Shown: one piece after another, positions 62,594 through 64,000 of the stretch
Layout: every line of letters starts with the position of its first letter
Position numbering within the stretch: the first letter of the stretch is position 1
NCBI GenBank assembly: GCA_949284175.1
Contig: CASDVE010000002.1
Location: 1-64,000, forward strand
DNA length: 64,000 nt
Direction of reading: 5' to 3'
DNA from: an uncultured Eubacteriales bacterium
Lineage (GTDB): Bacteria; Bacillota; Clostridia; Lachnospirales; Lachnospiraceae
Notes under the pieces: generated by a model
Told to the model about the DNA's origin: nothing
Databases searched by the model: none
The model's input: only the letters and a program-made list of their open reading frames with translations
Made by a program: the position numbers and the translations under genes

Positions 62594-63883
62594 ATGAGAA
62601 AAAAAGTGGTAGCATTGACGATGTCAGTATTGTTAAGTCTTTCAATGGTTGCATGTGGTTCAGGGGGAACAACAAGTGATAGCCAAGATACCTCTGCACC
62701 AGCTGCGGATTCAGGAGCATCCGTAGCAAATAAGGATAAACCTTTAGTGTGGTTCAATCGTCAGCCATCGAATAGTTCTACGGGAGAACTGGATATGACA
62801 GCCTTAAGTTTCAACAAAGATACCTATTATGTAGGCTTTGATGCAAATCAGGGGGCTGAACTTCAAGGAACGATGGTTCGAGATTATATTGAAAAGAATA
62901 TTGATACAATTGACCGTAATGGAGATGGTATCATCGGTTATGTGTTAGCAATCGGTGATATTGGACATAACGATTCCATCGCACGTACAAGAGGTGTTCG
63001 TAAAGCCCTTGGTACAGGTGTTGAAAAAGATGGAAATATCAACAGCGATCCAATTGGTACCAATACAGATGCTTCTTCTAAAATTGTACAGGACGGTTCT
63101 ATTGAAGTAGGTGGAAAGACATACGTTGTTCGTGAACTGGCCTCTCAGGAAATGAAGAACTCAGCAGGGGCTACATGGGATGCAGCCACAGCAGGTAATG
63201 CCATCGGTACGTGGTCTTCTTCTTTTGGTAAAGATATTGATGTTGTTGTTTCTAATAACGATGGAATGGGTATGTCCATGTTTAACGCATGGTCAAGAGA
63301 TAACAAAGTTCCTACGTTTGGTTATGATGCAAACAACGATGCGGTAGCTGCTATTGCAGAAGGATATGGCGGAACCATTAGCCAGCACGCAGATGTTCAG
63401 GCATATTTAACACTTCGTGTTCTTCGTAACGCTTTAGATGGAGTTGATGTAGATACAGGTATTGGTACCGCAGATGAAGCAGGTAATGTTCTATCTAGTG
63501 ATGTTTATGTATACAAAGAAGATGAACGTTCTTACTATGCTTTAAACGTTGCAGTTACTGCTGATAACTATAAAGATTTTACAGATTCTACAAAGGTTTA
63601 TGAACCAGTATCCAAACAACTTGATGCAAGTTCACACCCTACAAAGAAAGTATGGTTGAATATTTATAATGCTTCTGATAACTTCTTAAGTTCCACTTAT
63701 CAACCACTTCTTCAAAACTATGATGATCTTTTGAATCTTGAGGTTGATTATATCGGTGGTGATGGACAGACAGAGTCCAATATTACAAACCGTCTTGGAA
63801 ATCCAAGTCAATACGATGCTTTCGCTATTAATATGGTAAAAACAGATAACGCAGCTTCTTATACAGCTTTATTGAATCAATAA
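62594..63883 (+). CDS. mglB: Galactose/glucose-binding lipoprotein, circularly permuted
   Basis: 429 aa. Lipobox MVAC with Cys21 anchors it outside the membrane. Sugar ligands known from MglB are present: Asn55 (WFNRQP), Asp127 and Arg131 (GHNDSIAR), Trp195, Asn222 (SNNDGM), Asp245 (GYDANND). The calcium loop DRNGDGIIG follows at 107-115. The segment that starts ordinary MglB, the strand leading into (Y)DDNF, is found instead at the C-terminus: residues 352-429 with ASDNFLSS and AFAINMVKTDNAAS. So the domain order is rotated while binding residues are kept. The gene heads an mgl operon. Confidence 0.88.
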   Translation: MRKKVVALTMSVLLSLSMVACGSGGTTSDSQDTSAPAADSGASVANKDKPLVWFNRQPSNSSTGELDMTALSFNKDTYYVGFDANQGAELQGTMVRDYIEKNIDTIDRNGDGIIGYVLAIGDIGHNDSIARTRGVRKALGTGVEKDGNINSDPIGTNTDASSKIVQDGSIEVGGKTYVVRELASQEMKNSAGATWDAATAGNAIGTWSSSFGKDIDVVVSNNDGMGMSMFNAWSRDNKVPTFGYDANNDAVAAIAEGYGGTISQHADVQAYLTLRVLRNALDGVDVDTGIGTADEAGNVLSSDVYVYKEDERSYYALNVAVTADNYKDFTDSTKVYEPVSKQLDASSHPTKKVWLNIYNASDNFLSSTYQPLLQNYDDLLNLEVDYIGGDGQTESNITNRLGNPSQYDAFAINMVKTDNAASYTALLNQ

Positions 63884-63894
63884 TCTATATGGAA

Positions 63895-63932
63895 AACTAT
63901 TAGGAAGAAGAAGTTCTTCCTAATAGTTTCTC
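63895..63932 (+). terminator. Hairpin between mglB and mglA
   Basis: AACTATTAGGAAGAA (63895-63909) and TTCTTCCTAATAGTT (63914-63928) form a perfect 15-bp stem with a 4-nt loop and a weak T-run. It probably acts as a partial terminator or stability element keeping the binding protein more abundant than the ATPase. Confidence 0.65.
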
Positions 63933-63969: not shown

Positions 63970-64000
63970 ATGGTAGATAAGAAAGATGATATTGTCTTAT
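63970..64000 (+). CDS. mglA: mglA start, galactose ABC transporter ATPase (partial)
   Basis: ATG with AGAGGTG upstream. The ten residues visible read MVDKKDDIVL, which fits the beginning of clostridial MglA proteins. The gene runs out of the window. The call rests mainly on position behind mglB. Confidence 0.6.
   Translation, partial: MVDKKDDIVL

Follow-up and report, generated by a model that had tools for sequence, protein, structure and literature searches.

A naturally circularly permuted MglB of the TpMglB-2 type in a Lachnospiraceae genome

The stretch of DNA considered in the present work (hereafter, the window) consists of the first 64,000 nucleotides of contig CASDVE010000002.1, from an uncultured Eubacteriales bacterium of the Lachnospiraceae, a gut bacterium. 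Close to its end it harbors, on the + strand, an mglB gene (62594..63883), a single open frame with full-length relatives, coding for a protein of 429 residues. Sequence comparisons confirmed that this protein is a circularly permuted MglB: the unit with which canonical MglB begins stands here at the end of the chain. The permutation is real, yet the phenomenon was already described in 2016, and the protein belongs to a known type. Brautigam et al. (2016; PMC4990184) solved the structure of TpMglB-2 and described its circular permutation and a fourth hinge; they put forward a subclass, "Type Ic / Cluster Bc", with TpMglB-2 as founding member, and reported further relatives from treponemes and from numerous Gram-positive bacteria of the gut. 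Taken as a whole, the data are very probably best explained by a permuted predicted lipoprotein of the TpMglB-2 type, which would capture sugar, have MglA-MglC as its partner and descend from a single permutation.

Domain order of the permuted protein

The protein begins with a predicted signal peptide (62594..62656, +) ending at the lipobox cysteine Cys21 (SMVAC), a residue nearly invariant across 49 aligned sequences, and continues with a low-complexity spacer (residues 22-45; 62657..62728, +), the predicted local distance difference test score (pLDDT) of the model being below 50 over residues 1-41. The MglB core (residues 46-330; 62729..63583, +) was recognized through Peripla_BP_4 and structural alignment and comprises the part of the N lobe that starts, in canonical MglB, at strand 4, plus the C lobe; its opening residues, KPLVWFNRQPS, correspond to that strand. 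The signal peptide and spacer, 45 residues in all, are everything that precedes the core, too little to accommodate an N-terminal unit. A preliminary description of this DNA had joined the signal peptide directly to the second beta unit; it is actually followed by the spacer and then by strand 4. According to Pfam, Peripla_BP_4 matches residues 75-283 over positions 94-256 of the 258 in its profile, the first 93 being absent, and PF18610 (Peripla_BP_7) matches residues 350-420 with 143.8 bits. The latter marks the moved unit (residues 351-429; 63644..63880, +), equivalent to the canonical N-terminal unit and holding D362 and F364 (D14 and F16 in E. coli MglB). Core and moved unit are linked by a connector (residues 331-350; 63584..63643, +) located at the place of the fourth hinge and extended stretch of TpMglB-2 (PMC4990184); the alignment of the model with 6bgc_B extends through this segment, a comparison concerned with the presence of the connector.

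The structure was first modeled from 16 sequences (mean pLDDT 65.8); this version was replaced by a model built on 49 sequences. In the latter, the moved piece is predicted to form strands 351-357, 382-388 and 409-413 and helices 363-379, 395-401 and 420-428, and residues 41-329 align structurally with E. coli MglB. The preliminary description, which had suggested structure prediction as a check, was right about the move to residues 352-429, although three strand-helix units moved, not one. The predicted fold is two-lobed, with the C-terminal unit completing the N lobe and bringing D362 and F364 to the cleft.

Another check suggested there, an in silico rotation, was carried out by placing residues 347-429 before residues 46-346 and leaving out the spacer. 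The score against a hidden Markov model (HMM) of canonical MglB rose from 123.2 to 136.1 bits, the maximum with the unit shuffled 200 times being 121.5, and that against NCBIfam NF011924 from 90.5 to 100.4 bits, the best stretch then spanning the new joint. BLASTP against the canonical MglB of the same genome gave two pieces (70.5 and 20.8 bits) before rotation and one of 75.9 bits after it, and the profile-profile score passed from 265.1 over 223 columns to 302.1 over 303 columns. Two results weigh against the permutation: a scan of rotations at all positions, with the 24-residue spacer kept in the ring, gave no gain and singled out no cut, and the unit alone matches canonical N-terminal units weakly (11.9 bits, best shuffle 8.2).

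These data also bear on a different reading of the same protein, in which residues 351-429 would be a domain added at the C-terminus of a truncated MglB core that had lost its N-terminal unit. Pfam does assign the piece to a separate family, PF18610; nevertheless, the two pieces together span the canonical length once, rotation yields a single alignment of 303 columns, and the crystal structures matched end to end are described as permuted (PMC4990184), so that 5JX2, as described, contradicts an added domain. An extra C-terminal domain accompanied by an N-terminal unit, the case that the preliminary description had named as refuting permutation, was not found. The position of PF18610, the 5JX2 match and the rotated profile alignment led us to reject the added domain, which we consider very improbable.

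That two genes or fragments were wrongly joined during assembly or annotation is more improbable still, to the point of being negligible. No point in its support was found among our data, and it is refuted by the single open frame and the many relatives of the same order: 7966 relatives were scored at E 0.001 or better, the best 120 of them all bear PF18610, and 80 named loci were kept, as the best, out of 455. The circular permutation is thus borne out by the end-to-end match with 5JX2, the position of PF18610 and the gains on rotation.

Comparison with TpMglB-2 and E. coli MglB

The match with 5jx2_A (313.8 bits) runs end to end, from residues 46-427 of the window protein to residues 19-385 of TpMglB-2 (Tp0684; PDB 5JX2, 6BGC and 6BGD), the identity in the structural matches being 44-47%. 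In both, the first three strands of the N lobe are C-terminal (351-357, 382-388 and 409-413 here) and none is N-terminal. The window protein differs in a longer C-lobe segment near residues 141-175 and in the context of its gene, a Gram-positive-type operon with a two-component system. With E. coli MglB (GGBP; PDB 2FVY and 8FXT; NF011924) it shares the core fold over residues 41-329, nine of the ten sugar contacts and the calcium loop, whereas the N-terminal unit lies at the opposite end of the chain. The canonical order, with this unit first, is not that of the window protein, whose scores, native and rotated, both lie below the NF011924 equivalog cut-off of 420 bits.

The preliminary description had considered the binding residues and the calcium loop as kept. 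This holds for nine of the ten E. coli sugar contacts, the tenth being changed (N256 = Q264), and for the loop (residues 107-115, with D107, N109, D111 and G115; 62912..62938, +; distal ligand D216; ligands according to PMC4990184), which is present in the reduced TpMglB-2 form, with G115 for Q142 and D216 for E205 of E. coli. According to Table 2 of PMC4990184, sugar contacts and calcium ligands are the same as in TpMglB-2, except for D362, which corresponds to N311 at the E. coli D14 site. Of the ten sugar-contact sites, only the D14 site varies among 331 permuted proteins: it is an aspartate in 330 and an asparagine only in P0241, identical to TpMglB-2. In E. coli MglB, D14 presumably contacts the epimeric hydroxyl.

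In vitro, TpMglB-2 changes its conformation on binding D-glucose, and it prefers glucose over galactose (PMC4990184). Given the aspartate at the D14 site, where the glucose-preferring TpMglB-2 has an asparagine, the window protein may bind both sugars. The permuted MglB would likely capture glucose or galactose outside the membrane, its lobes closing upon binding as reported for TpMglB-2, and would hand the sugar on to the MglA-MglC importer encoded next door.

Origin of the moved unit

PMC4990184 left undecided whether another gene had supplied the moved unit. A profile of the unit matched that of canonical MglB with a score of 39.5 (P 6.4e-6) over 73 columns, that is, the whole unit; in the controls, the best of 150 column shuffles reached 26.4 and the reversed profile 10.2. 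No match was found with other Peripla_BP_4 sugar-binding proteins (family profile, 15.9; 25 single proteins, 17.6 at most). The N-terminal unit of canonical MglB did match the other-family profile (P 2.4e-15), which is therefore usable, though diverse.

A quick tree of the core comprised 100 rows, the permuted proteins being thinned from 331 to 43 and the canonical and other proteins from 130 to 57. The 43 non-redundant permuted proteins form one clade (Shimodaira-Hasegawa approximate likelihood ratio test, 99) within the MglB clade (99), consisting of 28 Bacillota-type rows (99) and 15 rows from the TpMglB-2 search (96).

Since the unit matches canonical MglB and none of the 25 other sugar-binding proteins, these data favor its derivation from one MglB gene. 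The single permuted clade inside the MglBs, together with the profile match, points to a probable single origin of the permutation, inside an MglB gene. Some results weigh on the other side. The diversity of the other-family profile may hide a match to the moved unit; against nine single canonical MglBs the unit scored 30.6 once and below 22 with the remainder, so that its signal needs profiles; and the join of the permuted clade to the nearest canonical row is unsure, carrying a long-branch warning.

In the alternative raised in PMC4990184, another sugar-binding gene supplied the C-terminal unit, which took the place of an N-terminal unit that had been lost and came to resemble it by convergence. 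This alternative would agree with a tree of the unit only (90 columns, 100 rows), in which, the columns being few, the permuted units find no firm place beside the canonical ones. It is opposed by the profile match along 73 columns, found with canonical MglB and not with the other families tested, by the SDNF motif of the moved unit, carrying the MglB-type D14/F16 contacts, and by the fact that core and unit each form one clade; on balance, we regard it as improbable.

Concerning the route from an MglB gene, the preliminary description maintained that duplication and truncation are needed. Fusions of MglB in tandem within one polypeptide were observed (L137:3655-5316, P0121-P0131 and P0133), 543-679 residues long and some with a truncated second copy. 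They were retrieved with a 553-residue double MglB (L137:3655-5316) as query, the best 120 of its 5057 relatives being examined; the order N-core-N-core occurs in the query and in 12 of these 120, a list enriched for duplicates because the query itself is one. P0122 and P0126 have lipoprotein-like signals at their start and two full MglB copies; the second core is reduced to about 51 positions in the query and in P0121, and in P0133 it ends at profile position 145. Two further candidates were discarded: P0132 (core-N-core), considered as an intermediate, seems truncated, its starting methionine lying within the N-terminal unit, and P0141 (N-core-core) represents a different internal duplication.

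These fusions indicate that in-frame tandem duplication of MglB happens, a step thus seen in living genes; they need not be ancestors of the permuted clade. The permuted order would result if such a duplicated protein then lost its first N-terminal unit and its second core. Against this route stands the position of the only tandem row of the core tree, in another MglB subclade, which leaves the route open rather than shown to have been taken.

Distribution and membrane anchoring

The presence of PF18610 was checked in overlapping draws of genomes, each count including the genome of the window: it was found in 21 genomes among 200 from the family, 2 among 146 from the order, 3 among 291 from the class and 2 among 398 from the phylum, whereas the 14 control genomes had none. 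Outside Bacillota, the named relatives among the matches listed (best 120 of 2642 in the TpMglB-2 search) are treponemes. A treponemal operon was also looked for among viral contigs, which yielded none.

It was suggested in PMC4990184 that the permuted topology is an adaptation to membrane anchoring. A lipobox pattern fits 92 of 96 permuted open reading frames (ORFs), the others (L011, L044, L059 and L088) having a signal-like start without the cysteine, and 113 of the best 120 proteins of the TpMglB-2 search. The same pattern fits 57 of 87 canonical-order MglBs (distinct ORFs of 330-410 residues, scoring 130 bits or more against the canonical copy of the window genome). Several of the proteins that it misses show a plausible lipobox or else a membrane anchor. 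Canonical-order MglB lipoproteins are found in the same operons as permuted ones, and some permuted proteins have no lipobox; the suggestion is thereby weakened: anchoring alone does not explain the topology, though it may still have been its origin.

An extended permease in genomes with the permuted MglB

The MglC of the window genome (L003:7463-9154, just past the window) is 563 residues long, and the MglC model covers residues 230-563 only. The first 225 residues are charged (45 K/R and 46 D/E), and this extension showed no sequence match in the PDB and no Pfam domain. Among the 200 family genomes, an MglC extension of about 220 residues was found in 21, exactly those harboring PF18610; it also occurs in two further PF18610 genomes of the class, G268 (L141) and G825 (L140). 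In the order-wide draw it was found in one of the two PF18610 genomes, the discordant one being G989. Overall, 23 of the 24 genomes examined with a permuted MglB have the extension. The 66 mglC ORFs of the named loci comprise 64 of 508-558 residues and two fragments.

The literature searches made found no report in print of a same-genome coupling between a permuted MglB and an extended permease. We suggest only tentatively, as a rather doubtful possibility, that the two form a co-inherited module, in which the permutation occurred once, inside an MglB gene, via duplication and the receptor works together with the extended permease, which would then be no mere passenger. Descent of one shared operon would give the same pattern; hence, any function of the extension is only inferred.

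The orphan permuted MglB of G989 (L198:9639-10901, - strand; 59% identity, with I at the D154 site) adjoins HD-domain and GGDEF genes, and no match for mglA or mglC was found within the 18 kb taken. It is possibly a sugar sensor for second-messenger control.

Organization of the operon

The mglA gene starts at 63970..64000 (+), cut by the end of the window, and is complete as L003:5971-7479; it was assigned through NF008215 (MglA), with 666.6 bits, below the cut-off of 828. The gene order in L003 is mglB-mglA-mglC-response regulator-histidine kinase (with a dCache sensor)-PBP-canonical-order MglB. The last of these (L003:13819-14880), about 8 kb downstream, belongs to the MglB family (NF011924, 225 bits) and is a predicted lipoprotein; unlike the window protein it has the classical order and follows the histidine kinase instead of preceding mglA, and it shares about 24% identity with the rotated window protein.

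In the named loci, mglA comes next in 75 of the 75 testable cases and mglC in 66 of 67. Where at least 9.8 kb of downstream sequence was available, a response regulator of the operon's kind (47/59), a kinase (45/59) and a canonical-order MglB (42/59) were found downstream. A canonical-order MglB lies directly upstream of the permuted gene in 6 of 70 named loci (L138, L139, L073 and L103 among the cases; also G149 and G046). A canonical MglB match (E 1e-20 or better) was found in 17 of the 21 PF18610 genomes versus 59 of the other 179 family genomes; the permuted form does not replace canonical MglB. The canonical-order MglB beside the kinase would likely sense sugar, and the two-component system would control the operon.

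A 16-bp hairpin is predicted between mglB and mglA (63894..63929, +) and was not scored as a terminator. It does not resemble a terminator. A stem of at least nine pairs is predicted in 64 of 76 loci, a length that shuffled sequences often reach as well; the median folding energy is -25.7, versus -15.5 for shuffled sequences. The hairpin possibly keeps the mRNA of the binding protein in excess. No Rfam family reached the gathering threshold around the permuted mglB, and a promoter scan returned 7 sites versus 6.8 expected.

Conclusions

Natural circular permutants of binding proteins indicate that the two-lobed fold tolerates a change in chain order. With these sequences, two questions dating from 2016 become testable, namely the source of the moved unit and whether anchoring selected the new topology, and natural material for both is offered by the operons with two topologies, the permuted proteins lacking a lipobox and the tandem MglB fusions. 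The coupling with an extended permease represents a lead for follow-up.
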